Under the pieces are notes generated by a model. It was not told where the DNA came from. It saw only the letters and a list, made by a program, of their open reading frames with translations, and searched no databases. This document shows positions 40,727-64,000 of a stretch of 64,000 nt of DNA, one piece after another (positions within the stretch are counted from its first letter, which is position 1; the number at the start of each line of letters is the position of its first letter). The DNA is from Streptomyces sp. NBC_00250. GTDB taxonomy: Bacteria; Actinomycetota; Actinomycetes; Streptomycetales; Streptomycetaceae. The stretch covers positions 9,094,578-9,158,577 of the forward strand of contig NZ_CP108088.1 in NCBI RefSeq assembly GCF_036192275.1, read 5' to 3'. A program made the position numbers and the translations under genes.

Positions 40727-41895
<1,169 letters not shown>

Positions 41896-41925
<30 letters not shown>

Positions 41926-43534: not shown

Positions 43535-43613
43535 GCGAAAGCCCCGCAGAGCCGCGGAGAGGGCCGAGGGGCCTGGCCGGGCGGGCAGGGCCCTCGAGCG
43601 CGCTTGCCGTCGA

Positions 43614-44344: not shown

Positions 44345-44458
44345 ATGAAGGCCCAAGAAGCGTTCTGCGTGCGATGCGGCGGCGCAGACACCCGAGTTAC
44401 CCGCCTCGACCAGACCAGCGCGGAAGGCACCTGCTTCCGCTGCGACAAGCCCTTCTGA
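44345..44458 (+). CDS. 37-aa zinc-ribbon microprotein
   Basis: MKAQEAFCVRCGGADTRVTR then LDQTSAEGTCFRCDKPF. Two CxxC pairs 19 residues apart would bind one zinc. A weak GAGG lies about 10 nt upstream. Small free zinc ribbons of this kind are common in actinobacteria; function unknown. Confidence 0.55.
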   Translation: MKAQEAFCVRCGGADTRVTRLDQTSAEGTCFRCDKPF

Positions 44459-44781
44459 CTTTGTTGTCGAGAGCCAGAAGCGTTTGTTGGTCAGCACCGA
44501 GAACGGCCCTTCGTCGGGAGTAGGCGTGTTGCCGAGTTCTGAAAGCGCGTTGGTGCTTGCGTCCGGCCATCACCTGTGCATGAGGGTCCTTCCGGGCATG
44601 ACAAGGCGGTCAGGCGTCTGGGCCGGTTGGTATTCGGTCTCGGGCTGACACGGCGAGCGGGTTCCGCACCGCCGGCTCCGGGACTCCGCGACACACACCA
44701 CAAGGGCCCGGACTGCTGTCTTCCGTGCCGACCAGTGCCTACGATCGACGACGCAGAGCGGTCCTGGGGGAGGGAGACGCG
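44459..44781. other. Gene-free stretch
   Basis: About 320 bases with no convincing ORF or RNA. Probably holds the promoter of the following membrane-protein gene. Confidence 0.5.
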
Positions 44782-45660
44782 ATGTCAGGGTCGGGGCCAT
44801 GGCGCCACTCCGAGGCAGTCCCGCCACCTCCGCATGTCGGCTGGCGGCCGGCACCGCTGCCGTTCCCGGCTCCGGGTGTGATCCTGCTTGATGCCTTCCG
44901 GGTCCTGGGCAGAGCTTGGTTCCCCCTGCTGGTGGCCCTGTTGCTGTGCGAGTTGGCGGTTTTCGCGGCAGTCATTGCCACCGCTCTCAGCATCTGGGGC
45001 TTCCTGGGCGCTCCCGACCTGTTTGCACCCGCCTCTGGTCCGGTCCGTTTGACAGACCAGCTCCTGATCTTCTTGCTTCCCTGCGCCCTGGGGATCTGGC
45101 TGGTCCAGGGCACGGTGGGCTCGCTGGCGGCCACTTTGGCCCACTTGGACGCGAGGGGAAGGCGGGTCACCGTGTGGGGGCTCCTGAGGGCAAGCGCGCC
45201 CCGGGTACCGGGCACGGTGGGCTGCTATGCGCTGACCTGCCTTCTGTGCCCCGTGCTGGTCAGTCCTTTCGCGCCGCTGCTGGTCTGGCCGTGGGTGCTG
45301 TACTCGCTCGCCCCGTCGATCATGGCCCACGACCGAGTCGGCATGTTTCAGGCCCTGAGCCGCGCAAAGGACCTGGTCAAAGGGGCGTGGCGGCCTGTGA
45401 TTTCAACGATGGCGCTCGCGGCACTGGTCACATTCGGCATGGACCTGGCAGTGGGCTACCTGCCTGTCGCTTCGATGGTGAACGGGACCAGAGGCGACGA
45501 AGGAGCAACGGCCGTCACCTTGCTCCTCGGCGTCATGATCGGGGCCATCAGCGTCTTCATCTGGGTCCTGATGCTCCAGTTTGCCTTCATGCACCTGGTC
45601 GGCGACCGGATCTGCGCAGCCTTACGGGATCGCCGCGCCACCCTGGCCCAAAGCCTGTGA
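44782..45660 (+). CDS. Polytopic membrane protein
   Basis: A 292-residue integral membrane protein from ATG 44782 (GGGAGGGAG upstream). After a Pro-rich cytoplasmic start there are about six helices (FPLLVALLLCELAVFAAVIA, QLLIFLLPCALGIWLVQGTV, VGCYALTCLLCPVLVSPFAP, VISTMALAALVTFGMDLAVG, VTLLLGVMIGAISVFIWVLM). The APSIMAHDRVGMFQALSRAK loop with 'ALSRA..LVKG.WR' is shared with the DUF7847/glycerophosphodiesterase membrane-domain type of actinobacterial proteins. Role unknown. Confidence 0.75.
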   Translation: MSGSGPWRHSEAVPPPPHVGWRPAPLPFPAPGVILLDAFRVLGRAWFPLLVALLLCELAVFAAVIATALSIWGFLGAPDLFAPASGPVRLTDQLLIFLLPCALGIWLVQGTVGSLAATLAHLDARGRRVTVWGLLRASAPRVPGTVGCYALTCLLCPVLVSPFAPLLVWPWVLYSLAPSIMAHDRVGMFQALSRAKDLVKGAWRPVISTMALAALVTFGMDLAVGYLPVASMVNGTRGDEGATAVTLLLGVMIGAISVFIWVLMLQFAFMHLVGDRICAALRDRRATLAQSL

Positions 45661-45760
45661 CACGAGACCTTCCCCCATCGCGGTAGCTGGACAGGCCAGT
45701 TCCGAGGTGCCCGGCCGAAGCGACCCCTCGCCTCGACAGGCGCTACTGGTTTTCACCAAC

Positions 45761-47405
45761 ATGGCATACCGAATTGATCACCGAGCGTTCTCGGAAGTCG
45801 CTGACAAGCGTTCTCGATATCGGGGCAACGTGCGGCCGCAGCTGGAAGAGCTGCTGTTCGGGTCGGTGGAGAACATGTCGGTGGAGTCGGTCCACGTGAC
45901 TGACGCTGTCGTCAGAGTGGAGGCCCGGTCCACGGCCAGGCGGTCGGCCTGTCCGGACTGCGGGTGCTGGTCGAGTCGAATACACGGCTCTTACCTGCGG
46001 TTTCCCCGCGATCTACCCACGTCGGGCAAGCTCGTCGTCATGTCGTTGCGGGTGCACCGGTTCGTCTGCGCGGAGGGCTCCTGCCCGCGCAAGACGTTTG
46101 CCGAGCAGGTGCCCGGCCTCACCCGTCGATCCGCTCGCCGGACGGCACGGCTGCGATCGACGCTCGTCTCGGTCGGTCTCGCGCTCGCGGGACGGGCCGG
46201 CGCCCGGATGTCGGACGCCTTCGGAGTCCGAGTCAGCCGAAACACCCTGCTGAGGTTGATCGCCTCGCTGCCCGATCCGCCCACCGCCGCTCCCCGCGTG
46301 CTCGGCGTCGACGAATACGCTCAGCGCAAGGGCCGGATCTACGGAACCGTACTCGTCGACGTCGAGACACGCCGGCCGGTGGACCTCCTGCCGGACCGGG
46401 AGGCGGGCACCCTCGCGGCCTGGCTGTCCGAATGGCCCGGGATCGAGATCATCTGCCGGGACCGGGCCCTCTTCTACGCCGAGGGCGCCACCCGCGGCGC
46501 CCCTCAAGCCCTCCGGGTCGCCGACCGATGGCACCTCTGGCACAACCTCGGCGAAGCCGCCGAGAAGTGCGTCTACCGGCACCGCGCCTGCCTCCGGCCT
46601 GCACCTGAGTCACCGGAGGAGCCAACCCAGGCGCTGGAGTCGCCCGCGGCCTCGCCGTGGCCAACGGGCCACCGGTTCGCCGAACGCACCCGCGCCAAGC
46701 ACGCCACCGTCCACGCCCAGCTGACCGCCGGCCATAGCAAGCGGTCCATCGCCCGGCAGCTCGGCATGGGCCTCAACACCGTCCTCCGCTTCTCCCGCGC
46801 CACCGAGCCGGAGCAACTGTTCACCGGAAAGTGGCAAAGCCGCCCCACCAAGCTCGACGCCTACAAGCCCTACGTCGACCAGCGATGGCAGGAAGGCTGC
46901 ACCAACGCCTGGAAACTGTGGGAGGAGATCAAGGCACAGGGCTCCCCGGACGGCTACGGCAACGTCCGCGCCTACGTCAGCCGGAACCTACGCGCCAAGC
47001 CCCAGCCGGTCGGCCCCCGGCCGCCAACCGCCCGCACCGTCACCCGCTGGATTCTCACCCACCCCGACGCCCTGGTCGAGAGCGACCGGCTCCAGCTCAA
47101 GGCCGTGCTGGCCAACTGCCCCGAACTGGACGCACTCGCCGAGCATGTGCGCTCCTTCGCGCACATGCTCACCCAGCTGCAAGGCCACCAACTGTCGAAG
47201 CGGCAGCCGCCGCCGACCTGCCCGGCCTCCAGCGATTCGCCCGGCATCTGGAGCGCGACCTCGACGCCGTCACTGCCAGACTCTCGCAGCCGTGGAATTC
47301 CGGGGTCGTCGAAGGCCATGTCAACCGGATCAAGATGCTGAAGCGCCAGATGTTCGGCCGCGCCGGCTTCGAACTCCTCCGCAAGCGGGTCCTGCTCTAC
47401 TCCTG
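45761..47405 (+). pseudogene. ISL3-family transposase with C-terminal frameshift
   Basis: Starts at ATG 45761 or, more typically for the family, GTG 45830. The zinc-finger region (ACPDCGCWSSRIHGSYLRFP; CAEGSCPRKTF), the DDE aspartates (VLGVDEYAQRKGRIYGT; IICRDRALFYAEGA) and an HTH are intact. Near 47200 an indel moves the end to another frame, where ADLPGLQRFARHLERDLDAV and SGVVEGHVNRIKMLKRQMFG (catalytic Glu in VEGH) continue. Beyond 47405 similarity ends and the right inverted repeat is not seen. About 500 of 550 residues remain; inactive as it stands unless the indel is a sequencing error. Confidence 0.88.
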
Positions 47406-47415
47406 CGCTTGCCGT

Positions 47416-47739
47416 TCAGCCTTCGGCGTCCGGCGAAGGTGGTTCGTTCTCGGCGGCGAGGGTGACTTGGGCGGTCCATGACCAAGGCTCCTGGGGCGGA
47501 TCCCAGCTCACCTCGACGTCGGTGTCGTGGAAGTCGCGCGCAAGTTCCGTCACCATCACCGCCGCAGCGGCCCGCGCGTCTTGCGGGTCGGTGTTGATCG
47601 GCACGTCCAGCCGCCCGCAGAGATTTCCGCTTTCGGTGAGGACGCTGGTGCGCCACCCCTCCAGCGTCGCAAACAGGAAGATCCCCTTCGGAACGCCCCA
47701 GGCGGGCCGCTTCTTCTTCTCCTTGCTGCGTCTCACCAT
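47416..47739 (-). CDS. Hypothetical protein (107 aa)
   Basis: Starts at ATG 47739 with a Lys-rich stretch (VRRSKEKKKRPAWGVPKGIF), then FATLEGWRTSVLTESGNLCG and SWDPPQEPWSWTAQVTLAAE. Beta-rich and soluble with good coding bias. It directly abuts the ISL3 remnant, whose insertion may have cut neighbouring regulatory DNA. No family recognised. Confidence 0.55.
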   Translation of the reverse strand: MVRRSKEKKKRPAWGVPKGIFLFATLEGWRTSVLTESGNLCGRLDVPINTDPQDARAAAAVMVTELARDFHDTDVEVSWDPPQEPWSWTAQVTLAAENEPPSPDAEG

Positions 47740-47842
47740 GCCGCCTATCCAACATCGTCGAGTTCATGGTGATGAGTCTGGGTGGAGGATCAACCGCCGC
47801 GGCACGGTTTGGTGCCTGCCTTGCACGGCAAGCTGAAATCCT

Positions 47843-48088
47843 TCAGGACAGATCGTCGATGAGCCCGAAGCCCTCCGGGAACTCCTCCAGGAACTTACGG
47901 CGAGCGGGGTTGGTCTCGGCAGCTGCCATCTCCCCGAGCAGGGCGATCAGCTCCTGCTGCTGATCACTCGACAGCATGCTGACCACGTGCGCGACGCCCT
48001 CCATCACCTTGACCGCGTCGTCCTGATCCATCTGCTCGTCTTCGCTGCCGTCGATGAACCACAGGACATCGACCAAAGCCTCGGCCAA
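47843..48088 (-). CDS. Small acidic helical protein
   Basis: An 81-residue protein starting ATG 48088 (MAEALVDVLWFIDGSEDEQM), entirely helical and acidic (LSSDQQQELIALLGEMAAAE). The good frame continues upstream of the ATG, so a longer original start is possible, but that DNA now overlaps the Nudix gene on the other strand. Function unknown. Confidence 0.55.
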   Translation of the reverse strand: MAEALVDVLWFIDGSEDEQMDQDDAVKVMEGVAHVVSMLSSDQQQELIALLGEMAAAETNPARRKFLEEFPEGFGLIDDLS

Positions 48089-48105
48089 GGCACGAGTCAG
48101 GGACG

Positions 48106-48582
48106 GGCGCGCTCATCTTCAACGGCGACGAGATCGCCCTCATCAAACGGGTCAAGAGCGGCACCGAGCAGTACACCGTGCCCGGCGGCAACGTCGATCC
48201 AGGCGAACCCATTCCGACCGCCCTCGCCCGCGAGCTGAGGGAAGAGCTCAACCTCGACGTCGACCAGGCCGACGCCGCCCCCCCCCGCTTCACATGGCTG
48301 CTCGACGCCATGGTCAGCCGCCCCGGAAGCACACCGCCCCGCAAACTCCACCTGGTCTTCCGCCTGAGCATCAGCGACCACGTCCGCCAGGCCTTGAGCC
48401 CGACAGAACACGACGACACCGCCGGCGCCGGTGAACTGGTCTGGATCCGCTGGCAGGAGGCCAAGGACAAGGCCCTCTTCCCGCCCGTGCCCGTCGCGGA
48501 CCTCACCACTCCAGCAGCCGGCCTCGACGCTGGCGCCGCTCTCCTGCCCGGGCTCAACGACTCCAACTACCACTGGATCTGA
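48106..48582 (+). CDS. Nudix hydrolase domain protein, 5' end uncertain
   Basis: The frame reads TGALIFNGDEIALIKRVKSG and then the Nudix box GNVDPGEPIPTALARELREE followed by LNL: G-x5-E-x7-REL-x-EE, with N instead of the usual G near the end. These residues bind Mg2+ and a nucleoside-diphosphate-linked substrate. The C-terminal part (FTWLLDAMVSRPGSTPPRKL; AGELVWIRWQEAKDKALFPP) is complete. No clear start codon is found in frame; GTG 48178 lies inside the Nudix fold, and the upstream DNA overlaps the preceding gene, so the N-terminus is probably lost. Substrate unknown. Confidence 0.7.
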   Translation, partial: GALIFNGDEIALIKRVKSGTEQYTVPGGNVDPGEPIPTALARELREELNLDVDQADAAPPRFTWLLDAMVSRPGSTPPRKLHLVFRLSISDHVRQALSPTEHDDTAGAGELVWIRWQEAKDKALFPPVPVADLTTPAAGLDAGAALLPGLNDSNYHWI

Positions 48583-48764
48583 TCCGGACCGGGGCGCAGC
48601 GACGTGGCACGTGTACGACAGGGCGCAGCGACGGCCAGGGCGCGCGGTATCGGCCGACGGATGCATCGGGCGCGGCGGAGACCCGGATCGGGGCGGGCCG
48701 GGCTCCAGGATCGACGCCTCTGCAGCCTTCGCTTCTTATGGCGTGATCATTCGTTGAGCCGTGC

Positions 48765-48911
48765 ATGACGGATCTCATCGAGCGGCTGGTGCCGGACGGG
48801 TTGTGGGTGTTGTTCCGGCGGGTGGTGCCGCCGACGGTGGTGGTACGTCCGCAGGGTGGTGGCCGGCGTCGGGCGGGTGACCGGCCCGGCCGGATCGTGC
48901 TGATGATCTGA
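48765..48911 (+). pseudogene. N-terminal fragment of IS5-family transposase
   Basis: MTDLIERLVPDGLWVLFRRV then VPPTVVVRPQGGGRRRAGDR is the standard start of IS5-family transposases in Streptomyces ('L.ERLVPDGLW.LF.R..P'). It breaks off after 49 codons. The other half is not contiguous; a C-terminal IS5 fragment lies at 50022. Confidence 0.8.
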
Positions 48912-49010
48912 CGGTCGGGACGAGAAAAGGTGCGCGGTTTCGGACAACCCTGGGGGGCTTTCGCAGGTAGGAAGGGTGAGAACGAAACAGACGCAGGGGG
49001 GAACCCGATC

Positions 49011-49886
49011 ATGTTCGAACGACGCAGGCCCGGGCTGAAGGCGGCGCTCGTCGCCACCGCCGTCGCGGCGGCGACGGCCACCGGGGCGGGCTCCGCCGTC
49101 GCCGCGCAGGCCGCCGACCCGGTGGTGGCGCCCGCCTTCCACCTGTACGGCGTCCACAAGCAGACCCACGAGCTGTGGGAGTGGTACCCCCGAGGACCGC
49201 TCCTCTTCACCGATGGGCCCGACATCTCCGGGCCCGAGTCGGGCGATCAATCGGACCTCGCCGACCTCATCACCGTCGACAACGCCAACCACGGCAGGAT
49301 GGGCGACGGCTGGTGGACCCTCTACAAGAACGGCCGGCTGGACTTCACCGGCTATGTCGACGACCAGTGGCATGGGCCGAAGAACGTCGGCCGGGGCTGG
49401 GACATCTACCGCACGGTCCTCTCGCCCGGCACCCTCGGCGGAGCCAAGGAGGCCGACCTGATCGGCCTCGACAGAGCCGGCGTGCTGCGGAGCTACCTGG
49501 GCTACCCGGACGGCCGCCTCACCACCCGCATGCGGGTCGGCGGCGGCTGGGGCCAGTACACCGAGCTGGCCGGCCAGGGCGATCTGACCGGTGACGGCAG
49601 GGCCGACATCACCGCCCGCGACAAGGCCGGCGTCCTCTGGCTCTACAAGGGCACGGGCGACTACAAGGCGCCGTTCGCGGGCCGTACGAGGATCGGCGGC
49701 GGGTGGAACGTCTACGACCGGCTGCTGTCCCTCGGCGACAGCGACGCCGACGGCAAGGTGGACCTGCTGGCCCGGAAGACGACGGGCGAGCTGCTCCGGT
49801 ACTCGGGCACGGGTAACGCGGCGCGGCCGTTCACGGCGCCGGTGCAGATCAAGGATAGCCACATGAAGGAGTACAACCTCCTCTAG
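49011..49886 (+). CDS. Short secreted FG-GAP/VCBS-repeat protein
   Basis: A 291-residue secreted protein from ATG 49011 (GGGGGGAA upstream). The leader is MFERRRPGLKAALVATAVAA with cleavage near AAQAADP. The rest is FG-GAP repeats (FHLYGVHKQTHELWEWYP; DLTGDGRADITARDKAGVLW; LYKGTGDYKAPFAGRTRIGG). It lacks the Ig-like and middle domains of the array at 33-42 kb, so it is a minimal propeller-like relative. It sits between two IS5 fragments, suggesting transposon-assisted movement. Confidence 0.8.
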   Translation: MFERRRPGLKAALVATAVAAATATGAGSAVAAQAADPVVAPAFHLYGVHKQTHELWEWYPRGPLLFTDGPDISGPESGDQSDLADLITVDNANHGRMGDGWWTLYKNGRLDFTGYVDDQWHGPKNVGRGWDIYRTVLSPGTLGGAKEADLIGLDRAGVLRSYLGYPDGRLTTRMRVGGGWGQYTELAGQGDLTGDGRADITARDKAGVLWLYKGTGDYKAPFAGRTRIGGGWNVYDRLLSLGDSDADGKVDLLARKTTGELLRYSGTGNAARPFTAPVQIKDSHMKEYNLL

Positions 49887-50021
49887 ACGTAAGGCACTTC
49901 GTCCCAGGCGGCCCCGTTCCCGGCATTTCGGGTCCGGGGTCGCCCCCTGTCGGGGCCCGCCGTCTGTCACAAGTCCTGGTCTCTGGTGTGACCTCACCGA
50001 GGACGAGGAGGACACCTCTCC

Positions 50022-50335
50022 TTGGTCGACCGGCCCGCTGATCGGCGAGGCCAGTGGTCCGCTGATCTACTTCCCCATCGCCTGCGCAAGCGCGGACTCC
50101 GGGCGGTCATCCCCGTTCCGGCCGATCAACGCGGCCACCGGCTGCGGCGCGGCAGCCGAGGCGGCAGACCATCCGCCTTCGACCGTGAGGCATACAAGCA
50201 GTGCAACACCGTCGAACGCTGTATCAACCGCTTGAAACAGTGGCGGGGCATCGCCACCCGCTACAAGCAGACCGCAGCCATCTACCTGGCCGGACTCTAC
50301 GTCGCCAGCATCTTTCTTTGGTCTGCCAGGCCATC
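50022..50335 (+). pseudogene. C-terminal fragment of IS5-family transposase
   Basis: RLRKRGLRAVIPVPADQRGH, then GRPSAFDREAYKQCNTVERC and INRLKQWRGIATRYKQTAAI with YLAGLYVASIFLW are the end of an IS5-type DDE transposase (catalytic Glu in TVERCINRLK). No start and no N-terminal half; the end runs into the neighbouring gene's 3' region. Confidence 0.85.
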
Positions 50336-50338
50336 GAC

Positions 50339-51085
50339 TCAGGAGCAGGAGCGAACCGCATCGTCCCAGGCACCAGGGCTGCGGTAGTTGTTCTTGTGCC
50401 CTGCGGCAAGTACGTGGCGCAGTTCGGCAAGGTGCTGGGTGCTCGTGGGGAGATCCAGCCGGCTGAGGAAGGTCAGTGCGGCAGCCGGCTCCAGGTCGCC
50501 GTAGACGTCGTGGAAGCTCGCCAGCAGGCCGCGGAAGACGGCCGGGTGCAGGGCAGGAAGCCGCATGGCGGTGCGGTACGTCAGCTCCTTCACCGTCCAG
50601 CTCACCGGTCCCGAACACTCCAGAACCCGACGGGCTCGGCGGAGCAGGGCCTCCGATCGCTCGGCCACCACCCGGTCGATGTCGTTACCGAGAACCTCGG
50701 CGAAGGCCGTCGCGTACGTGGCGTGGTCCTCAAACCAGTCCACCCACAGCGAGTAGGTGACGGCCTCGGCGTCCAGGTCCGCCTCCAGCCGCTGACGGTA
50801 GCCGTCCCACAGCACTTCGGCCGGCAGGGGACCCTCCGCACTCGCATTCGCGAACCGGATCTCGCACGTGACCCAGTACTCGTCGAGGAGGTCCAGCAGC
50901 CCGAACGCCAACCGCACCTGGTCGGCTGCATCCAGGTCTTCGGCGAACACATCACCGGCCCAGGAGTGCGCCACCTGGTTGGCGGTGAGCAACGCGTCCG
51001 GCTTCTCGTCGCTCACCCACCCGTCGCGCACCTGGCTGACGCCCTGATCAGCCAGCCAACGCCGCGCTGCCTCCTCGGCTTGCAT
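50339..51085 (-). CDS. Hypothetical protein (248 aa)
   Basis: From ATG 51085 (MQAEEAARRWLADQGVSQVR), with GTGGAG upstream. Mostly helical, acidic and Trp/Tyr-rich (LAFGLLDLLDEYWVTCEIRF; VTYSLWVDWFEDHATYATAF). No motif is recognised. The last ~10 residues run into the IS5 fragment, so the native C-terminus may be lost. Confidence 0.6.
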   Translation of the reverse strand: MQAEEAARRWLADQGVSQVRDGWVSDEKPDALLTANQVAHSWAGDVFAEDLDAADQVRLAFGLLDLLDEYWVTCEIRFANASAEGPLPAEVLWDGYRQRLEADLDAEAVTYSLWVDWFEDHATYATAFAEVLGNDIDRVVAERSEALLRRARRVLECSGPVSWTVKELTYRTAMRLPALHPAVFRGLLASFHDVYGDLEPAAALTFLSRLDLPTSTQHLAELRHVLAAGHKNNYRSPGAWDDAVRSCS

Positions 51086-51220
51086 CTCCACTCGGGAAGT
51101 ATGACCGGGCCATCGCCGGCCTCGTCTCCGACCGCAACACCACCGCCTTGCCACGACCTCGATCAGGCAAACACGTCTCCACCGCTATCACGCCCCAGCT
51201 CGTAAGCCGACGTCCGTGAT

Positions 51221-53371
51221 TCATGCGACGTTCCAGACGCTCAGTCGGTCGAGGAAGGATGCTGCCAGCATCGTGCCGTCCGGGCTGTACGCCACGCTGG
51301 ACGCCATGTTCCTCTCGGCTACGGGGGGAGGCACCTCGTGGAGTTCCCGCGTGGCGACGTCCCAGATTTTCAACCCCTTTCCGGTGGCACCGGCGAGGGT
51401 CTTGCCGTCGCGGCTGAACGCGACCTGAGAGATGAACCAGTCGAAGTTGCTGCTCCCGCCGTTGAAGGAGAGGGCGCCGATCCTGGACCGGAAGTCCGTG
51501 TTCCACAGCAGCACCCTCTCATCGGCGGTGGCGCTCGCCAGCATCGTGCCGTCCGGGCTGTAGGCGAGGCCCTCGAATTTGTCGTCCGTGGTGATGGAGT
51601 TCGTGATCTTGCGGTTGGAGACATCCCAGAAGCGGATGATCCCAGCCTCGTTGCAGGCCGCCAGCGTTCCGCCGTCCGCGGTGAACACCAGGCCGGTGTG
51701 CGCCTTGCCTTGGTTGTTCGTGCGGGCGACGGGGTCGATGAGGGTGGTGATCCGGGTGTGGTCGGCGGCGTCCCACAGGGTGATGGTGCCCTTGGCGTTG
51801 GCGCAGGCAAGGATTGAGCCGTCGGGGGCGAACGCCAGGCGCTGCACGGTGAGCGGGTCGTACGCGGTGTCCGTCAGACGGGCGATCGGCTTGCCCGAGG
51901 CGACGTCCCACAGGGTGGTGGCTCTGTCCTCGGCCGCGGCGAGCACGGTGCCGTCCGCGCTGAACGCCACATCCTGGATCCCCTCATACGTCACCTTCCT
52001 GCGATCGTTGAAGGTCGCGGTCCGCTTCAGGCCGATGCTGTCCCACAGCGTGACGGCACCGTCGCCCGCACCGACGGCGATGACCGAATTGTCCGGGGCG
52101 AACACCAGGCACTGCACGGCGCCGGCATGCTTGAGCGAGACCCGGGGACCATAGAGGGTGCCTGGGCGTCGTGTGGGGGACGGGCGACTCTTGCTCCCGG
52201 CCGGTTTCGTACCCGGCGTCGCGGAGCTGCCCTTGTCCTCCGTGGCGCCTCGGCCGTCGAACAGCTTCCACCCGACAGGTACGGCGGCGGCAGCCGCGAT
52301 CCCCGCGCCGATCAGCAGTGTTCGGCGACTCGGGCGGGAGCTCGATGCGCCGGCGGGCGGCGGCTGGTCGGGGCCATCGGCCGGAGACCGCGGTTCTGCC
52401 GGCGGGAGGGACGGCCCCACGGAAGTACGGACGATGGTCGTCGCGTCGGCTGCGGCGACCAGCGTATCCCCGGCCGACATGCCCAGATACCGCGCCACCT
52501 CAGCTTGCTGAGCGTCGATCAGCGCGTGCACCGCGGGCGGCCAGGGGCACCCGGAACCGACTTCGCCGCTCCTGATGGACGCCAGAACTTCCGCCGCCGC
52601 GGGACGCGCATCCGGGTGCTTGGCGAGGCACGGAGCGATGATGTCCCGCAGCCTGCTCGGGAGAGCACCGAGGTCGGGCTCCTTGTGCACGACGTTGTAC
52701 AGCGTCTGCGGCGTGGAGTTACCTGCGAACGGGCTCGTACCGGTGTAGGCCAGCAACAGCATCGTGCCGAACGAGAACATGTCGCTGGCCGGCGTGATCC
52801 GCCTGCCCTCCGCCTGCTCGGGCGACATGAACCCCGGCGAGCCGACCAACCAGCCAGTGTGCGTGATCTCGCTGCCGCCGTCACTGTCGGTGGCCCGCGC
52901 GATGCCGAAGTCGATGACCCGGCACCCGTCCGCGGTCAGCAGGACATTGGACGGCTTCAGGTCGCGGTGGATCAACCGCGCACCATGGACGTCGACCAGG
53001 GCTGCCAGAAGCCCCGCGGCCAACTGCAGCACCGCCTGAAGAGGCAGCGCTCCCGAGGCATCCAGGACCTCGCTCAGCGACGGCCCCGGCACGAACACGG
53101 ACGCCAGCCAGGGGAGTTCCGCATCCGCATCGGCATCGATCACCGCCGCGGTGTGTAAGCCGGACACCCGTCGGGAAGCCTCGACCTCGCGGCGGAACCG
53201 CGCCCGGAAGCCCTCGTCCTCCACCAACTGCGCGCGCACCACCTTGACCGCGACGACCTGCCCATCGCGGGTGCCGCCCAGCAACACCCGCCCCATCCCG
53301 CCCCGGCCGAGCTCGGCCACCACCCGGTACGGACCGACCTCCGGTCCATCCGACGCCTCCAGCGGCTTCAC
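51221..53371 (-). CDS. Ser/Thr protein kinase with WD40-like C-terminal repeats
   Basis: A 716-residue kinase from GTG 53371 (GGGGAGGG upstream). The kinase domain has LGRGGMGRVLLGG (21-33), Lys43, HRDLKPSN (135-142), DFG (154-156) and SPGFMSPEQ (178-186). After a Pro/Ser-rich linker one membrane helix (about 351-370, TLLIGAGIAAAAAVPVGW) leads to about six or seven WD40-like repeats outside the membrane (LVFAPDNSVIAVGAGDGAVT; LVFTADGGTLAACNEAGIIR; LAYSPDGTMLASATADERVL). WD repeats usually mediate protein contacts, so it may sense or scaffold partners. A degraded inverted copy of this gene occupies about 56400-57640 in the tail. Confidence 0.9.
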   Translation of the reverse strand: MKPLEASDGPEVGPYRVVAELGRGGMGRVLLGGTRDGQVVAVKVVRAQLVEDEGFRARFRREVEASRRVSGLHTAAVIDADADAELPWLASVFVPGPSLSEVLDASGALPLQAVLQLAAGLLAALVDVHGARLIHRDLKPSNVLLTADGCRVIDFGIARATDSDGGSEITHTGWLVGSPGFMSPEQAEGRRITPASDMFSFGTMLLLAYTGTSPFAGNSTPQTLYNVVHKEPDLGALPSRLRDIIAPCLAKHPDARPAAAEVLASIRSGEVGSGCPWPPAVHALIDAQQAEVARYLGMSAGDTLVAAADATTIVRTSVGPSLPPAEPRSPADGPDQPPPAGASSSRPSRRTLLIGAGIAAAAAVPVGWKLFDGRGATEDKGSSATPGTKPAGSKSRPSPTRRPGTLYGPRVSLKHAGAVQCLVFAPDNSVIAVGAGDGAVTLWDSIGLKRTATFNDRRKVTYEGIQDVAFSADGTVLAAAEDRATTLWDVASGKPIARLTDTAYDPLTVQRLAFAPDGSILACANAKGTITLWDAADHTRITTLIDPVARTNNQGKAHTGLVFTADGGTLAACNEAGIIRFWDVSNRKITNSITTDDKFEGLAYSPDGTMLASATADERVLLWNTDFRSRIGALSFNGGSSNFDWFISQVAFSRDGKTLAGATGKGLKIWDVATRELHEVPPPVAERNMASSVAYSPDGTMLAASFLDRLSVWNVA

Positions 53372-53595
53372 TGGCCCTCCCCGGTCAGAAAACGCTTCCA
53401 CGCGACGTCCGTGCCGCGTAGATCGCTGCTTACATCCTTCCCCACCACCACCCTGTGGAACGGATCATCCGTACAACCACACCGGTTGTGAACCAGGTCT
53501 GTAGGCCGTGTCTCTTCACACCTGGTGTTCGTCTCCGGGGCGGTCCGTGCGTGTAGCAGGGGTCTGACCTGTGGGTTTCTGGTTGCGGGCGTGCC

Positions 53596-53846
53596 TGCGC
53601 AGGTTGGTTGAGTACACCGCAAGTTGATGGGTGACGTGTGGGTTGCAGTGGAGTGCGTCAGCTGTCTGCACCGGGTGTGAGAGGTGTTTGTGCTGGTCGG
53701 GGGGCGTGGTCGGGGGCGTGGGGTGTCGTTTTGCTGGTGAAGGTTGTTGTCGTTTGCCAGTGAGGTTTTGTTGTCGTGTGTGTAGGCGTGTGAGGGGGTA
53801 GGTGGCCTGGTGTTCAGGCGACCGGTTGCGGTTGGTTGGGGTTGCT
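53596..53846. repeat. Diverged intergenic repeat, copy B
   Basis: Counterpart of 31471-31800: GCAGGTTGGTTGA (53600) followed by GGGTGACGTGTGGGTTGCAG and G+T-rich DNA, ending GGTTGGTTGGGGTTGC next to the helical-protein remnant's stop. Noncoding; may be a conserved 3' region of the mobile gene whose end survives at 53847. Confidence 0.6.
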
Positions 53847-54037
53847 ACTGCGGCGGGAGTTCAGGGAAGGACGCGATCTCGGCTTTGAGAGTCCGCCATG
53901 CTGCTCGTTGCCGTTGTTGTGTTTCGTTCCGGTCGGCGATGGCTTTCAGGGTGGCGATCCGCTGGTCGATTCGGTAGGCGCGGAACGGGTCGGACGGCCT
54001 GAGCTGGTCGAGGCGGCGGGTTGCTGGGTACTGCTAC
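53847..54037 (-). pseudogene. C-terminal remnant of a helical, mobile-element-type protein
   Basis: With no start codon, the minus strand reads RRLDQLRPSDPFRAYRIDQR, then IATLKAIADRNETQQRQRAA and WRTLKAEIASFPELPPQ ending in TAG at 53847. It is a coherent amphipathic helical tail, cut by a stop 7 codons upstream. I believe it belongs to a plasmid/mobile-element protein but cannot name the family. Confidence 0.5.
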
Positions 54038-54470
54038 TCGGTGGCTCTTCTTCAGTGGTTTGGTGTATTGGCTGCAGTTGGGCGTCGACCCCTGTGACCT
54101 GCAGCTTTGTTGGCGAGAGGGCCGGGTGACTGAAGCCTTGGTGACGATCCTGAGCTGGAGGTTGGCGCCGAAGCACAAGTGAACCTCGCGCCGAGTAGCA
54201 GGCATAGGGACCCTCGCCAGTCTCTATCCGGCTACCCTTTTGAAGCAGCCTGGGTTTCTCGCAGCTCCCTCACTTCCACCCCTGCTGTAAGCCGCGCTCA
54301 GGGCCGGTGGCGGAGCGCGGGTTCCGCAGTGGCTGCCCTCTCCTGTGACTGCGGGCTTCCACAGGACCAACACCCCGGTCTACGCTGGTAGTTGTCTGCT
54401 TTCTCCGACGGGGGGAGGGACGTCCCGCCCCGAAAGGGACGGGCCGCCCCTCGAACAAAGGAGGACAGAC

Positions 54471-54599
54471 ATGAGTGATGACCGGAAGTCATCTCGCCGG
54501 AGTCGACTGGCTGCGGAGATGGCGAAGCGACTTGCTGTGGCACTGAGCGCTCGCGCTTTGTGGTCAGTGATCGTGGAGCTGATGCGCGGCGAGAGCTGA
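54471..54599 (+). CDS. 42-aa basic ORF next to the telomere
   Basis: MSDDRKSSRRSRLAAEMAKR then LAVALSARALWSVIVELMRG ES. AAAGGAGG precedes the ATG at perfect spacing, and a terminator-like hairpin follows. A basic N-terminus and an amphipathic helix could bind nucleic acid or membrane. It is the last gene before the hairpin array, and such position suggests, but does not show, a role at the end of the replicon. Confidence 0.65.
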   Translation: MSDDRKSSRRSRLAAEMAKRLAVALSARALWSVIVELMRGES

Positions 54600-54604
54600 T
54601 CCCG

Positions 54605-54646
54605 GAGAAGGCGGGTCCTGTACCCCCGCGCAGGCTCCGCCTTCTC
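54605..54646 (+). terminator. Hairpin after the 42-aa ORF
   Basis: GAGAAGGCGG pairs exactly with CCGCCTTCTC; an inner CCTG/CAGG extends the stem. It lies 6 bases after the stop codon and probably ends its transcript. Confidence 0.65.
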
Positions 54647-54784
54647 ATACCGGCCGGAACGACGATCCGCACACAGCCGACCACCCTAGGCACCCTCCCC
54701 GTAGCCGGCTACCCGCGCCAGCGGGCTGGTCCTGGAGGCGAAGCCGGAAGGAGCAGGGCGGGGGAGCGAAGCGGACCCGCCCAA

Positions 54785-54981
54785 CGGGCCAAAGGCCCGG
54801 ACCCCGTGAAACGGGGTCACCCAGGCTCGCGAAGCGAGCCGTTCGGGTGGAGCGAAGCGAAACCCGAACCCGTCCGGAGCGAAGCGAAGGACCCCGGCCC
54901 GAAGGGCCGGCCCTGGCTCGGCGAAGCCGAGCCCCGCCGAGCGCAGCGAGGCGGTTCGCTGGCACATTGCGCAGCAATGTG
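54785..54981. other. Telomere-like array of hairpins with GAA/GCA loops
   Basis: Seven or more inverted repeats follow each other: CGGGCC-AAA-GGCCCG (54785), ACCCCGT-GAA-ACGGGGT (54801), GGCTCGC-GAA-GCGAGCC (54824), GTTCGGGT..ACCCGAAC (54841), CCGGCCC-GAA-GGGCCGG (54894), GGCTCGGC-GAA-GCCGAGCC (54915), CACATTGC-GCA-GCAATGTG (54963). GNA trinucleotide loops are the hallmark of Streptomyces telomere 3' overhangs, and the last hairpin with its flanks (read inward: ACCACATTGCTGCGCAATGT) resembles palindrome II of the archetypal telomere. A further GGCTCGC-GCA-GCGAGCC is at 55011. The terminal protein would attach to the 5' end, located at about 54990-55100. Confidence 0.75.
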
Positions 54982-55261
54982 GTCCCGCCCTAAACACGCC
55001 CCCTCTTTGAGGCTCGCGCAGCGAGCCCTCCCCACCCGCAACCCGGACCGCCGCGTCCGGGGTTGCATGGCTTCTGCGCGGGCGCGCAGAGGGGTGTGTT
55101 TGTTAGCACGTGTGTGGCCGGGCGCACCTCGCGCTCGGCCCGGCTCACGCCAGCTCCCAGCAGCTCGCGGAGGCTGAGGCCGTTTCGTCCCCAGCCCCGG
55201 TCGCGCCCTGTCTCCACCGCCTCAAACCGGCCCACGAGCGCCGGGTGGCCGGGAGCCTAGG

Positions 55262-55335
55262 GAGTCTGAGGCAGGATCACCCGCTTGACCAGGAGGCGGA
55301 GCCTGCAGTGAGCCGAGATCGCGCCGCACTCCAGC
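55262..55335 (+). repeat. Alu-like segment (right arm)
   Basis: GTCTGAGGCAGGATCACCCG, then AGGAGGCGGAGCCTGCAGTG and AGCCGAGATCGCGCCGCACTC follow the primate AluY right arm with small gaps. A more diverged piece of the left arm precedes it at about 55115-55190. Bacterial genomes do not carry this element; it indicates human DNA. Confidence 0.85.
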
Positions 55336-57273
55336 TCCCGGGTACCCCGGGCACCACAAGCGCGACGCTAGGCCTGCTGCAGCTGAAATGCGCAGTGGCG
55401 CCCGGCGCCATCACTCACTATCTGTACTCTTGCTGGGAGCGATCCGCCCGTCTCCACCCCCATCGGAAGCGGAGCAGGCGCCTCGCGCTGTGGGCCTCTG
55501 AAGCCACTCCGCCGACGGCATGGCCGGACGGCGGGGTCACCAACAACACTCGGCAATGCATGTACCATCGCCGACCCCGGGGATCAAACCTTATCGCCCT
55601 CTGGCCGCTTGCGGGTGACGCCCAACTACATCTCCCCGCAGGCCGAGCCGCCGGTGGCAACGGCGACCCGCCTCGATCGCCAGATCGACCAACCGAATCA
55701 CCGAACGACACGGCTGCAACTCAAACATTGCCAACCCCAACCAACGACCGATTGTTTTATAACCACCCTGCGCACCACGTTTAAAAACCTCGCTATTCAC
55801 CGACGAAAACGACACCGCCGCCCCCATTCCGGCACAAACACCGGGCAACCCCGACCTCAACACATCACCACCGCGACCCTTCGGCAACACCGCTTTGCTG
55901 GAATCAGATTTTGCCGGGACCTCCGGGGTTTCGACACCGAATTGAAGCTGATGCGATCCTACAGTGATGAGGAGACAAGCAACGTCTGACGACAAAACGG
56001 GGGGCTAGTTTTCTTCGAAGGGCCGCTCCAGCTTCTGAAACGTGGGATGGTTGGAGTTTCATGTAGGTGGTCGTGGAAACTCGGCAAATGGAAGTGAAGC
56101 GCTGTCTACCACCGTGGTACGGATAGTATTAGCAATTCCGGGTCAGTACTCGCATTCAGGCGCGGCTCCACCGCGGTTCCCGACCGGGTGACCGGCTTGC
56201 AACGTCGTTGCCTGAATAGGATTACAGGAGCCACCATTTTGGCCGACAATCCGTATTCATTGCCGAGATAGCTGAGCTCCTGAATGCGGGAAGCACTACC
56301 TCTTCAGGCAGGCCGCGCAGTTAACCACGGGGCGGCACCCTGATCATCCATATTGGGGGCCCCGGTCCACCTCGACTGGCTATCCACATCACCAACGTGG
56401 AGTGCTTGGTCATCGACACTTCGGCATCGCGCAGACCAGTGACATCGCCGTCCACCTGGCGGTCCCCTCGCCCAGCGCAGGCGGAGGCCAGTGCAGGGCC
56501 AGCGACTGCTGGTTCGGCGCGCAGCGTCTTCTTCGGCTCGTTCGCGACGAACGGCACCGTGGTGCAGGCTCTCCAGGCGAGCTGCGGACGCATCGCTCGC
56601 TGGTCTCCCGGGTGCAGCTCGGCGCGGCGTGCATGAACGTGGACGAGACCTTTTCGGCCGCCGCGGTGCCTTGTCGGCGCTCAACCCAACTGGTGGCAAC
56701 CATCTATCGCCAGCTCTGGTCGCCGCGGCCGGCGCGGCGACCATCGTCCGCACTACGGGGCCGTCCGCCACCCGGCCGGTCTCCAGCCGATGGCCCCGAC
56801 CAGCGCACCGCCACCCGGCCCTCCTTCCCGCCCCGAGTCGCCGAGTACCACGGCGCAGGCCGCCACGTCGAGGCTTCGGCCGAGCACGGACAGGGCCGCG
56901 ACGCCGAGCCGTGCCGGGGCGTCGCGGTCCTACACGACGCCCAGGCTTTTCTATGATCCCCACATCTCGCTCCATTGTGCGCGACGCCATTAACGTGGTC
57001 GCCCCGGACAATTCGATTAAATAGCCGTCGACGTGCGGCATTGTGCGCGAGACATCGGTGGACCGACTCAACGATCCTCGGAAAAATTGACATGAGATCC
57101 AGATGACCGTTCAGCACTTGGTTGGTACCGTGCTCGCCGCGGCCGAGACGAGCACCACCGGGACCTCGGGAACACCATTATCGTGCGCCTTCGCCCCGGC
57201 AATCGCCTGCGCCACCGAAACCTCTACAATGAAGTTGCCGACCACACCCACCACCCTCGTCGACCCACCCAGT

Positions 57274-57525
57274 AACCAAGGCAAGGCGCACACCGGCCTG
57301 GTGTTCACCGCGGACGGCGGAACGCTGGCGGCCTGCAACGAGGCTGGGATCATCCGCTTCTGGGATGTCTCCAACCGCAAGATCACGAACTCCATCACCA
57401 CGGACGACAAATTCGAGGGCCTCGCCTACAGCCCGGACGGCACGATGCTGGCGAGCGCCACCGCCGATGAGAGGGTGCTGCTGTGGAACACGGACTTCCG
57501 GTCCAGGATCGACGCCCTCTCCCTC
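57274..57525 (+). repeat. Near-identical inverted copy of WD40 kinase segment
   Basis: About 252 bases encode GKAHTGLVFTADGGTLAACN through LASATADERVLLWNTDFRSR, differing from the reverse complement of 51463-51714 at only a few positions. The flanks on both sides are degraded versions of the same gene. The clean block in noisy surroundings suggests local correction by short reads rather than a functional second gene. Confidence 0.9.
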
Positions 57526-58164
57526 AACGACGCAGCTGTGGCCTCCTCGGGCGCGTTCAACTGTCTCGCCGGCCTCCTGAAAGGGGTTGAAAACGGGACG
57601 TCGTCTCCCGCCATGGGCAGTGCTCCCCGTAGCCGAGGTTATGGCGTCCAGCATCGGGCACGGTAACATCACAATCAGCATCCTGGACTCATAGCCCAGT
57701 CCGCAGCACAGCCTGACAGCAGTGAGACCCCGTGTTTTGACAATCCGGGACCAAATTAACAGAACAGTGTCTTGATCAAACAACCCAATCCTGAGTCTTA
57801 AACCCAGTAACACAACTGATCAGACGTCAGCAGGAACACGCTAGCGTGGTGAACGACGGCATTACTCACACCGATAACACAGGAAACGGCAATCGCCAGA
57901 CTAGTTGGCACTTTCAAGTGCGACAACTCGGAAAGACCTCCTCATTCAAGTCTACATCTCGTCAATCTCTACATGCCGGAAAAATATGAATCAACCCCGA
58001 CAAGCGCTCGGAGCCGTCACACCACTCCCGCTTCGGGGGCGGAACCCCGGCCGAGACCACGCCGACGACACTCGCGAGATCGACCGGGTGAGCAACCGAC
58101 GATCGAAACCCCCCCCCCCCACCAATTCGGGACCCGGTCGGGGCGGTTTTGACGAAGGCTTGTT

Positions 58165-58571
58165 TTTGTACCACACCTGCCGGACGATCTCAAACTCCTG
58201 ACCTTGTGAGCTTCCACCCGCGTCTCGGCGTCCTGGAGGACTGCCATGAGCCTGCGCCACCGCGCCCGGCTGGATCACCTTGCCGGAGCACATTGCCAGG
58301 CGCAGGCTGGCCCTGCCGGCCTCGTGCAACCTGGGTTCTGACATGGAACAGGCTCCTTCACCGGTCAAGGTGAGCACCACGAGCATTTTAAGAGCTGCTG
58401 ACGACTGCATCCAGCCAAACCAGATGACTTACCATTCTGCGAATGACCCGCCATTTCAAGCCGGTGTCCCATTTGGCAATCTCACAGCCTGCAGTCAGAG
58501 CTGTGATTGCACCTCACTACACCTGCAGGTCAACCGAGACGGGATGACAAAAAAAAAAAAAAAAAAAAAAA
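58165..58571. repeat. Alu-like segments ending in a poly-A run
   Basis: 58178-58280 reads as antisense Alu (GATCTCAAACTCCTGACCTT ... CACCGCGCCCGGCT). About 58490-58571 reads as the sense right end (CTGCAGTCAGAGCTGTGATT, GCACCTCACTACACC) followed by 23 A. Human contamination is the simplest source. Confidence 0.8.
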
Positions 58572-61500
58572 CGGAAGTGGGTCGACGGACCTGTCGCCGA
58601 TCCCGCTTGAACCCTCATCCAAGGAGATTTGTCCTCGTCCTCCCGTGAAGATCCTGGACAGACGGAGCAGGCGGTGACCCCCGGGCCCAGCTCTGCCCGC
58701 GGAGACACAGACCGCCCTTGCCCTCTGGGAGGAGGTTGGCGCCCGCCACTCATGGCCTCCTGCCACCGGCGCCGTGAACGGCCGCCGCAGACCACCCGTG
58801 CCCCGAGTACGGGCAGCTCGCCCGTCAGCCAGCTGGGCTCCACTGCCCCCCACGTCCGGCGTCCTCCTCGAGGGGCAGCAACCCGGTCCACCCGCCTCTC
58901 CCGTATCCTCATTCCCACGGCCACGAACGCGCATCGCCCATGCCCCGCTGAAAACCCGGGACACCGACATGCGGGCCTGATGATCCGGCCCCTGCCGTCA
59001 CCGGTCACTTCAGCCGGCCAGCTCCGGTGTGGCCCCCGGCTGCCTCGACCCCCACCGGCGTAGCGAGTGAACTGACCTTCCACAACACTCGGCTCTGTCC
59101 GAAGACCGAATTCCGGGCCTCCCGCCTTCCGCCAGCCTTGGCGGGACCGTACATTATCAACAACCGACACTGATCGCCGGTAGTCAACATGGGAATCGGC
59201 GTCACCTCTACCGTGGTGTCGACGATGATGAAGGTCGACATGATCACCCGGCTCGGGCGGGATGTTACATCGATGAGCGATCAGTACCACTCCCACATCG
59301 TCATGAACACCACCCTTGTGACGGCGCCGGCTGCGGCGGCGAATTCCCCCGGTAAGTCTGCCACGACGCTTGGCGGCACCCGGGCTTCATCATTCAACAT
59401 GTCGAGGTTCCCCCCTGCGTACATTTCATTCTCACCCTTAGCGTCAAGCCGCTTTTCACGGCGGAAATGTCAACACCGGCCACCTACAAGACATCCCCAC
59501 CACCGTCGGCCACCGTTAGCCTGCAATATCCTTCCAACCCCGCCGTCATGCGGCGCCAACGAATGATCACGCCACTTAAGCACGAAGCAGAAGGCGTCGG
59601 AATCTGGGCCCGCCCCGATCAGGTCCGCCGCCCTTCTCCGTCGGCCACCGCGCCCTGGCCGGCCCTCGCCCCGTGTCATGCCCTCGCCTTGTCCGAAGAT
59701 CGAATGGCCAGTTGAGTCGTTGAACTTGGAAGGCGGCGCCAGCGTCGAAGGCGGCTTTTTCGCTTAGTGAGGTCCACGACCCAGCCCGTGACTCACCGAG
59801 ATTTGAACCGGACCACCCGCCGTCCGGGCACCAGGCACGGCGGGCCGCCAATTCGGGCATGAAAGACCAGTGAGTTTGCAGCATTCTTCCGGGAGACGAC
59901 GGTGACGTGAGCCGAAACGGGGGGACCCCAGCCCGTCCGAAACTCTAACCATAAACAAAGTCGAGATGAGTTCGCCTAGTCCGACGTTGCCACCACAGCC
60001 AGCCTACTCGGTGTATCACCGGCCGACACAGTGAACTCAAAATTGACGCACCGTCTGACTTTCGACCTTTGACCGAAAGACCCCCGGTCGATGTCATAAT
60101 GTGGAACGGCAGCAGGCAGGCAGGTGGATCAGAGTTTGACAAACCGATGAACGTCTGTCTTATGCTGTCAGTGATCAGCCGAGGATAAGCCTAGCTCGAG
60201 GTGGCGGCAAACCAACCCCGCTCGCCGTTCTGGAGGGGTTCCCGGGCTCATCCGGTGACCGAAGACTTTGCATCAGACGACACCAAACCCGATGCCACCC
60301 AGCAATTGATCCTCCACCATGAACTCGACAGTGAGCCGGCTCGCATGATTAGTTGGGAGAAGCCGGCCTGGGGAGCAGGGGATCTTCCTGTTCTGGAAGG
60401 GGTGGCCTCAAGCTGTCACCGAAAACGGAGAATGGACGACGAACATCAACACCGCCCCGCCAAGCGCACCTTCGCAGCGGCGATGTGACGGAAGCACCGC
60501 GCGACACCACGACACCGACATCGAACAACGGATCCCAATCAGACCGCCGTCACCTCGCACGAACGGCCGCCGGACCGAGCTGAACGCTGCTTGCAGAGTA
60601 AACCCACTGCGGGGCCGAAGCGGCGCAGCATCTGGCGTACATCTTGATCGGTGCAATGGCCTCGACGACTGCGCATCCGGAAGTCTGTCAGGTCATGCCG
60701 GGCAGTCGCGCAGGCCAGGTCGGCGTACTCGATTGACCTGACGCTACGGCTGGTGGTATTGGCGCGGTACATGCTCGGTGCGTCAATTCGAGACGGTGGT
60801 AGCGCAGCGGCCGGGTCATCTCACCTCACCCGAAGTCGAGATGGTGGAAGAACGGCGATTGACGATGCCGGAAGGTTAACCGGGGGCCGACCGGCTGGGG
60901 TGGCGCGGCGGCTGACCAGGCGCGGACGTTGGCACCGTCAGGAGACCCTGTGCGTCTCCTCCCACGGTTTCCAGGCGTTGTGCAACGCTTCCCGTCGCTG
61001 GTCACGTACGTCGAGCTGATGAGCTTCCGGTGAACGCGCCCGTCGGCGGCAGGCCCTGTTGGACGCGGCCAGCCTGCGATGAACCCGCACATGGCCACGT
61101 CTGTGCACAGGCTCGGCGCCCGTGGCCACAGCGAACCTGGTGTCCAGCACCTGGTCCCCGGCTCCTGGCTGAGCAGCCGAGAAGGCGGCCGTTGCCTTCT
61201 CGGCGGCTTCGCCGACCAGAGGTACCGATCGGCATTGGGCTGAGGGCGCCGCGGGTGGCCGCCCTCGGCCCGGTCCCGGCAGATGATCTCATCCCCAGCC
61301 GACCTCGGACAGCCGAGCGCCTCCCCGGTTTCGGCGAGTCCGCCGGCCGGCCTCTCGACACGGTGGATCCGGCCCCTTGAACTTCGCGCCCGCGCGGGGT
61401 GGCGGAACTCGGTAACCCCTCAGCACGGGGCTGTTTCGGTGACCTGGACCGAAGATCCGGCGGCCGTCCCGCGGCGCCGAACATCACCGATGCCGGCGGC

Positions 61501-62310
61501 GCAGGTCGACGAACCGGGTACTGCTCGTAGGCGTCTAGCGCGGGCGAGCCGGTGCGCCACCGCAGGCGACAGTACCAGCCCGACGAGGTAGATCACGAAG
61601 CCGATTAGAGCCGAATGTCGGTCGACTCCGCCCCAGTCCGGACGGAGCCGACCGCGGCGCCATGGACCTTGACGACGGCGTCCGGTATCACGTTCGACAT
61701 GTCCACCGACTTGGCAGCGCTCTTCCCTTGCGGCCACGTATCGAGAACGCTTGTCGAAGGCGACTCCGAGCGCTCGACGATCAATTCCGATGCCATGACG
61801 GTGCTTCCGAACCGAAGTCTCGGCACCTCGGGATTCTTCCTTCCATTACCGCGATGAAGGTCTCATCTGTGGCGACGTCCATGGGCAAGGTCCATGTGGG
61901 GCATGGCGAGCATCCGTGGGCGCTGATGACTGATCCGCCGGGGCGGTACTCGTCATGACCCGTTCACCAACGTACGGCGTGGCCACTGCTGTCCATGCTG
62001 TGACCATGCCCTCAATCTGAACACACCCAGGCCAGGTCCTTTGCTGCAACTCAAGAGACCAATGCATCGATCTCGGAGGCCCATGATCGTGAGACTGTGG
62101 CCACAGCACCACGATGTAGCAACACGGCACGAAGACCTGACAGGCGGACACAAACAGGTCAGCATAGCACTTGCTAGGAAACCCACTGTTGAACCCACTC
62201 CTGCGACAGAAGTGAATTCAAGGCGCCAGCACGAAGCCCTGTGCCTCGTTATCCAGGGCAGGAAGCAAAATCAGGTGATGCAATCAAGCAATGCTCAGAA
62301 GACATTTTAG

Positions 62311-62375
62311 CTGGGCGAGACGGTGGCTCATGCCTGTAATACGCTTGGCTGAGGCAGGAGAATTTCAAACCCAGG
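62311..62375 (+). repeat. Alu-like segment (left arm start)
   Basis: TGGGCGAGACGGTGGCTCATGC then CTGTAAT, followed by GGCTGAGGCAGGAGAATTTC and AACCCAGG. These are landmark words of the Alu left and right arms joined by a deletion. A short A-run at about 62490 is nearby. Confidence 0.8.
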
Positions 62376-64000
62376 ACCGGAGGCATCAGCGGAGATCACA
62401 CCCGAAGACCCACGGCTGGCGGCGAAGTACGATTTCCAGGTAACCAGCCGACACGACATCCCCCGGGACCGAAATGCCGATCGTGAACTGATAAAAAAAA
62501 AAACCGGTCGAGACGTTGTAGTGATGCGCCGGTGCCGAACCCCGCCATGTCATCCCGTGATACCAACCGGCGGGCTGTTGCACATGCTTGGAGGACATGC
62601 ACGAATTGGCCGAATATCCTCATCTCTCGACGACACCGACCGAAGGAACCGTTCTCGCCGACTTCCAATGAGCATGCCAACCTATCGACAGTCAGAGAAG
62701 CTGATGAGCTGAGCCGCCTTCCGCCCACGGTCGCAGTTGCTCAGTGGTACGCGCCACTCTTCGCTCCTCAAAGTGGACACCTCATGTGCAATTATTCAGG
62801 CCTCGTTTGCTCCGAGATGACACCCACGCTGCCCTGCCCACCCAGGTCAGGCGTCTGGTGGGAGCAGTGATGACATTGTTAGCTGAGACGGGGCTCAGTG
62901 GTGCCATGAGCACCCACTCCTCGAAGGCCTCCGGGAAGCATTCCGGCGGCTTCCCCACGTCCCCGGCACCGCCGGCCGGGCCGCCATGTGAGGACCTATC
63001 GAACTCCCCGGCAGGCTGATCCGCCGGTGTTCTGGCCTACCATGCCAATCAGCTCCGGGAGATCCGGATAGCTGTGACCGAGCAGACCCCGCGAACGGGC
63101 TGGAGGTCCTTCCCTCATTCCGCCTCGTCGTTGGCACCCCGAAGTCACAGGGCGGTGAAGGCACGAGAACCCCAAGATCCGCTGCTGCGGTCCTCATCGG
63201 CTGATGTTCTGAGGCGACAGCGAAGCCGAAACTGTTCCCTGACCGAAAGTCCGAATCGATACACGGCATCCCTCTGGCGGCCGGCGGCGGGCGGGCAACC
63301 AGCTCTGTGGCTGACGTCATCCCCGTAGTCGCGACGTCCCCTCCCGAGCAGAATTTAATAAAAAGGTGACGGCAAGCGCTCGAGCCCTGCCCGCCCGCTC
63401 GGCCTCTCGCGGCTCTGGAGCTCGCTCGGCGCCCTGAGCTTACCACTCCGGCGCCGTCGTCCGGCGCCTGATCCGAATCCGGTCCTCCGCAAACGGGAAG
63501 ACGACAGGTCGTCTGTCGGAGTTGCCAGGCCAAGGATCCTCGTCCTGTCGTGCTGTGCAGGTGACCGGGGCCGCCGGACGGCGAGCCGGCCCGGCGACGA
63601 CACGCCCCCACCCTAACGGCCAGCCGGCCACGGCTTCTTCCATACCCTCATGCAGTTAAGCCGTCAGGGGGTGTCGACCTCCTCAGAGGCCACGACAACC
63701 ATCGAGACCCCAGACCTCGGGCCTCCACACTTCGAAAATGACAGAGCGGCACTTGCCGTCCAACATTCCATTGATCCGGCCGAGCTGTGGCATCTCAAAT
63801 GAGCCCTGGCCCCTGCCCGACACCAGGCTGCAGGTCAGGCTGTGGTCGACGTCCTCGGCTGGCCCGGTCGAGCAACTCAGGGCACGCACGAACGGCAATC
63901 GAGCAGGCGATCAACAGGCTCAGATGCCTACCAGCCACCACGGTCGACGTGGCCTCGAAGCGTTTCATGCGGTCACCCCGTCGATGGGGATAATCGAAAA

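Follow-up and report, generated by a model that had tools for sequence, protein, structure and literature searches.

The genome of Streptomyces sp. NBC_00250 comprises 9,270,399 bases in two contigs, and the stretch analysed here (the window, 64,000 nucleotides, C1:9094578-9158577) extends to the final base of the chromosome contig C1, which has 9,158,577 bases. Towards the left, the window holds a 2,374-aa ORF (4012-11136) with a pretoxin HINT domain near the C-terminus, which looks like a polymorphic-toxin-type protein; a strong strand skew is seen at 6-10 kb. It is followed by a 1,329-aa ORF (21203-25192) with many tetratricopeptide repeats and by three overlapping long ORFs (33333-40582) with FG-GAP-like repeats. 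The regions 33333-42000 and 49426-49774 contain a family of related stretches with 65-80% identity, and palindromes lie at 13805-13852 (perfect, 48 bases) and 33048-33086 (near-perfect, 39 bases). The right part of the window is formed by an arm, a telomere-type sequence at its outer end and a tail. When 42810-52810 of the arm was compared with plasmid records, 57 of the 59 matching records were from Streptomyces. The coordinates are collected in Table 1.

Table 1. Features of the right part of the window; Alu scores refer to a human Alu consensus, and "arm" to the bases of the source arm.
Feature	Coordinates	Strand	Evidence
Source arm (template of the noisy reverse-complement tail)	42810..55051	+	Global alignment; self-BLAST
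Intact protein-kinase and WD40 gene in the arm; the tail holds broken pieces only	51221..53401	-	Pfam PF00069 and PF00400, 726 aa
Telomere-type sequence with many small hairpins	54712..55051	+	89-90% identity to C1:116-434 and C2:109-429; fold
Mirror axis	55052..55052	.	Inverted repeat 55038-55051 / 55053-55066, 1-nt spacer; global alignment
Mirror tail, very probably an artefact: the second, noisy half of a fold-back long read	55053..64000	-	7,358 matches, 998 mismatches, 1,100 deletion and 324 insertion events versus arm
Possible Alu-like stretch	55130..55180	+	Score 22; underlying arm 10; alone not above nulls
Alu-like stretch	55235..55335	+	Score 53; bases fitting both arm and Alu: 64; arm alone: 19; Alu alone: 17; neither: 1
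Perfect island, read as polishing patch	57274..57511	-	238/238 identical to 51478-51715
Alu-like stretch	58179..58270	-	Score 40; bases fitting both: 52; arm alone: 17; Alu alone: 18; neither: 5
Possible Alu-like stretch with A-run	58486..58555	+	Score 22; underlying arm 9; alone not above nulls
Alu-like stretch	62307..62432	+	Score 34; bases fitting both: 76; arm alone: 21; Alu alone: 19; neither: 10

The tail (8,948 bases) reproduces the arm (12,242 bases) as its reverse complement, collinear but noisy. Self-BLAST of the window (E up to 1e-3) gave 14 minus-strand matches pairing 43.2-52.5 kb with 56.7-63.7 kb; 13 of them were in strictly inverted order, and the other one (51264-51292 with 57452-57424) fell off the diagonal because 51264-51292 repeats 51537-51565. 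A global alignment anchored at the axis, which covered every base of the tail on the full length of the arm, scored 2972 for the tail against the reverse-complemented arm. As controls, the arm in its own orientation scored -741, the arm reversed without complementing scored -849, and four shuffles in 12-base blocks gave values from -795 to -818. The initial annotation had described the right 9 kb or so as a mirror image of the preceding 12 kb or so, and both analyses bear this out. The inverted order of its anchors was confirmed too; the anchor at 53.8 kb is collinear in the global alignment, yet it is absent among the self-BLAST matches. The axis does lie at telomere-type sequence, as had been proposed for some telomere-like hairpins, at 55052 and not at 54990, and the shortening, put at about 25%, amounts to 26.9%.

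The deletions removed 3,886 bases, and 908 of the 1,100 events were of 1-5 bases; the insertions added 592 bases. Overall, 60% of the arm bases were recovered in the tail. In the mirrored kinase gene, with the island excluded, the mismatch rates across the three codon positions were 0.125, 0.137, and 0.131. The GC content was 0.629 in the tail versus 0.677 in the arm. Two A-runs of at least 9 bases were found in the tail, and there was no A-run of at least 6 in the preceding 55,052 bases. The ungapped identity, computed in 250-base bins with the axis set at 55040, was 0.82-0.85 in the first five bins and 0.80-0.93 later, reaching 0.99 in the bin of the island. We read the divergence of the tail as read error rather than mutation.

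The tail had also been described as corrupted over its whole length, and this does not hold at the island, whose 238 bases are identical to 51715-51478. The second-longest exact run between tail and arm has 24 bases, and corrupted sequence abuts the island on both sides. We infer that the island is a patch polished with accurate reads. Five tail ORFs were scanned against Pfam: four gave no match, and the fifth (57103-57666) matched WD40/beta-propeller models only, because of the island that it overlaps. These results agree with the earlier warning that gene calls from the tail would be spurious. The same-species genome G004 gave merely scattered matches of 65-94% to the arm, so it was unusable as an independent reference.

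Regarding the sequence before the axis, its DNA fold beats shuffles (z -4.98), and the 118 bases at its outer end, 54934-55051, share 96% identity with C2:111595-111712. The similarity to the other ends of the genome stops at 55051, adjoining the GCA loop of the hairpin GGACCGC-GCA-GCGGGCC; the axis thus takes the place of a loop that those ends carry. The other three replicon ends have the axis-type sequence 108-115 nt from their tips and finish at telomere tips, with no such mirror. Here the outermost 108-115 nt are missing on both sides of the axis and, therefore, the true right tip is not in the record. With 54860-55051 as the query, a match at E up to 1e-3 was found in 32 of 199 genomes of the genus. 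At E up to 1e-15 there were 21 matches, and in 17 of them the distance to a contig end was at most 451 bases. The remaining four comprise the match of the window itself, which is 8,949 bases away from the end, two matches that stand head to head in one contig (G078:C380) and an inner site in another genome (G012). Being common to the other ends and located at contig ends, the sequence before the axis can be assigned, by similarity and position, to the Streptomyces-type telomeres.

Some arrangements of telomere-type sequence were observed apart from the tail. At their left ends, the chromosome (C1, 1-2407) and the linear contig C2 (1-2402; 111,822 bases in all) share 99.7% identity in an alignment of 2,407 columns, and the chromosome right end has only the 340-base telomere core in common with them, a sign of end exchange between replicons. 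In the 22,910-base contig G078:C380, the two telomere-type sequences stand head to head (stretch L055, 8554-9115) as a palindrome of 599 columns with 78% identity, which is either an end-to-end fusion or an assembly join. In G012 (C1 8433273-8436372), telomere-type sequence is located about 0.6 Mb inside a 9,034,319-base contig, with every copy in the same orientation, possibly in a fused replicon.

Three stretches of the tail, of about 90-130 bases, align with the human Alu, a primate SINE. Against its consensus they score 53, 40, and 34, where the arm segments beneath them have 15, 13, and 18. All three stretches top every null run: the best scores are 20-25 in six stretches of 8,948 bases taken elsewhere in the window (the arm included), 27 in 100 order-3 Markov copies of the tail and 30 in 150 noisy copies simulated from the arm. 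From the side of the Alu, the reversed consensus scores 24 on the tail and 60 Markov Alus score at most 26. The sum of the three scores is 127, versus a best of 70 in the simulated noisy copies (0 of 150). The best BLAST piece against Alu has 34 bases with 97% identity (E 1.6e-11). The two stretches with score 22 were dropped as evidence since the nulls reach 20-30. Rfam (E up to 10, 54400-64000) gave three matches (E 0.44, 4.1, and 8.2), far under the gathering scores, and no SRP/Alu family.

The first Alu-like stretch (query 55235-55345) was also searched in 788 genome searches, which scored few candidates per genome in partly overlapping genus and phylum samples with the own genome included. 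Matches appeared in 8 other genomes of 392 (genus) and in 7 others of 396 (phylum); none was above 48.2 bits, so we read them as chance, and no strong match was found in these searches outside the own genome. Within the own genome, a second match to this query was not found. An Alu-derived 22-letter pattern had a sole match among genome contigs, from which records near the window's genome are possibly left out; it lies in a Polyangiaceae MAG (L090) with one 22-base Alu match, no other above 12 bases and no fold-back, and it is read as chance. No Alu match at E up to 1e-3 appeared in 55 end stretches of other genomes. The Alu-like tail is one case only, and no report of Alu hallucination by basecallers was found among the top-ranked literature matches, where "alu" also matched many other words.

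The mirror tail is not a real feature. We assign a probability of about 0.95 to its being the second half of a fold-back long read (template, then complement) left beyond the telomere at the contig end, most likely from Oxford Nanopore. The initial annotation had favoured such a read with a low-quality complement. This reading accounts for the inverted order and the shortening, for errors that are mostly deletions and carry no codon-position signal, and for the abrupt island and the position at the contig end. Neither the Alu-like text nor the loss of the telomere tip had been noted in that annotation. In nanopore reads of inverted duplicates, the quality drops at the junction and bases are missed and wrong; the low-quality part scales with the preceding one yet is consistently shorter, and re-pairing beyond the pore, which speeds the strand, has been proposed as the cause (Spealman, Burrell and Gresham 2020, PMC7229812). 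The tail shows the same inverted order and a shorter, error-rich second half that begins at the junction. Unlike the cases in that report, it lies at the telomere of a bacterium and has become part of an assembled chromosome, and the Alu-like text seen here is not mentioned in the accessible part of PMC7229812. It also resembles the fold-back artefacts of the Breakinator paper (BMC Genomics 2026, PMC12870357), near-palindromic long reads with no adapter between the halves, which are present throughout ONT library types; they are described there for reads, whereas here the structure is in a contig and at a telomere. The accessible parts of PMC9453081 and PMC9045324 hold nothing on fold-back ends. 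No noisy mirror chain was found in the 55 end stretches of other genomes, 54 of which reach the contig end (L058 stops 96 bases short), where tails above about 10 kb would be missed in stretches of 20 kb; noisy mirror tails are therefore not common in the sample, a point against the fold-back read. Isolated inverted matches of at least 60 bases occurred in 13 of the 55, mostly as single palindromes, with the head-to-head telomeres of L055 among them.

Platform, polishing and the cause of the fold-back we infer, and the course of events may have been as follows. One strand would have been read outwards along the + strand, turning about 110 nt inside the telomere tip and continuing along the complement. 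The second half would then have been pulled too fast as it re-paired with the half that had already left the pore, and it is proposed that bases were missed and miscalled because of this speed. The far side would have been covered by too few reads for consensus or short-read polishing, save for the one 238-base patch. In the poor signal, a neural basecaller trained partly on human DNA may have fallen back on a remembered Alu. The turn of the strand could be due to a 3'-end snap-back at a telomere hairpin in library preparation, to a real fold-back molecule or to both strands passing successively.

Other origins of the tail were weighed against the fold-back read. Insertions prevail among the raw errors of PacBio, which are similar on the two passes, and here one half has shrunk by 27%, with runs of missed bases; a PacBio subread chimera from a missed adapter is thus very improbable, even though it would have the same mirror geometry and PacBio data contain fold-backs too (PMC12870357). 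A real inverted duplication of the chromosome arm at its terminus, since decayed by mutation, would suit an axis that sits at the telomere and a genus in which inverted repeats and rearrangements are usual at the ends (PMC11260486). However, substitutions with traces of codon constraint and few indels would be expected of it, and the deletion events exceed the mismatches (1,100 versus 998), the mismatches run alike through the codon positions, the kinase gene of the arm is intact and a perfect island stands amid a recovery of about 60%; nor is human Alu-like text expected from decay. The terminal inverted repeats of Streptomyces are likewise inverted repeats at a chromosome end, but they join opposite replicon ends (PMC11260486), and this mirror is corrupted and stands on one side of one end. 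Such a duplication is, in our opinion, hardly credible. It is unlikely, but less so, that the molecule was real in the cells, either with its right end in a fold-back or hairpin form or as an inverted dimer, and that only the letters of the second half are noise. The published nanopore noise occurs when the molecule is truly an inverted duplicate (PMC7229812), and the hairpin-ended linear plasmids of Rhizobiaceae are likewise read into the other strand (PMC13293297). The position of the axis at the loop of a telomere hairpin is in line with this, although the coincidence weighs little because the region has many hairpin loops. On the other side, terminal proteins are reported to cap the telomeres of Streptomyces (PMC11260486), fold-back reads arise also as library artefacts (PMC12870357), and the mirror is present at only one of the four ends of the genome. 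The Rhizobiaceae plasmids have numerous reads at their closed ends and a protelomerase gene (PMC13293297), whereas the turn at this one end is 108-115 nt short of a Streptomyces-type telomere tip. The loss of these nucleotides on both sides of the axis is not what a plain read-through of a closed hairpin end would give, and it counts against the favoured fold-back read as well.

For the Alu-like text, the alternative is human DNA joined or mixed into the read or the polishing. Human DNA is a common contaminant and Alu is its commonest repeat. Nevertheless, the three stretches take the place of collinear arm bases (tail/arm length ratios 0.70, 1.00, and 0.73) and are therefore not inserted human DNA. 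No contiguous extra copy of Alu was found; bases that fit only the arm and bases that fit only Alu are mixed (19/17, 17/18, and 21/19, where the arm alignment was free to gap and the arm-fitting numbers are generous). Unlike a genuine human Alu, there is no full copy and no human flank, and the letters are blended with those of the bacterial arm. Together with the lack of a second match to 55235-55345 in the own genome, this makes contamination rather improbable. Since the stretches replace arm bases instead of being inserted, the text is probably a hallucination of a neural basecaller (compare PMC6591954, 2019), in which a memorised human Alu was blended with the true bases under degraded signal.

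It follows for this organism that the last 9 kb of the chromosome record should not be annotated and that the record is without its real right telomere tip. If the reading of the Alu-like text is true, what a basecaller writes under poor signal is in part guessed from its training and can resemble the sequence of another species, and in an assembled bacterial chromosome such text could be mistaken for contamination or horizontal transfer. In that case it would bear on screens for human contamination, on claims of horizontal transfer and on the trust given to low-quality read ends.
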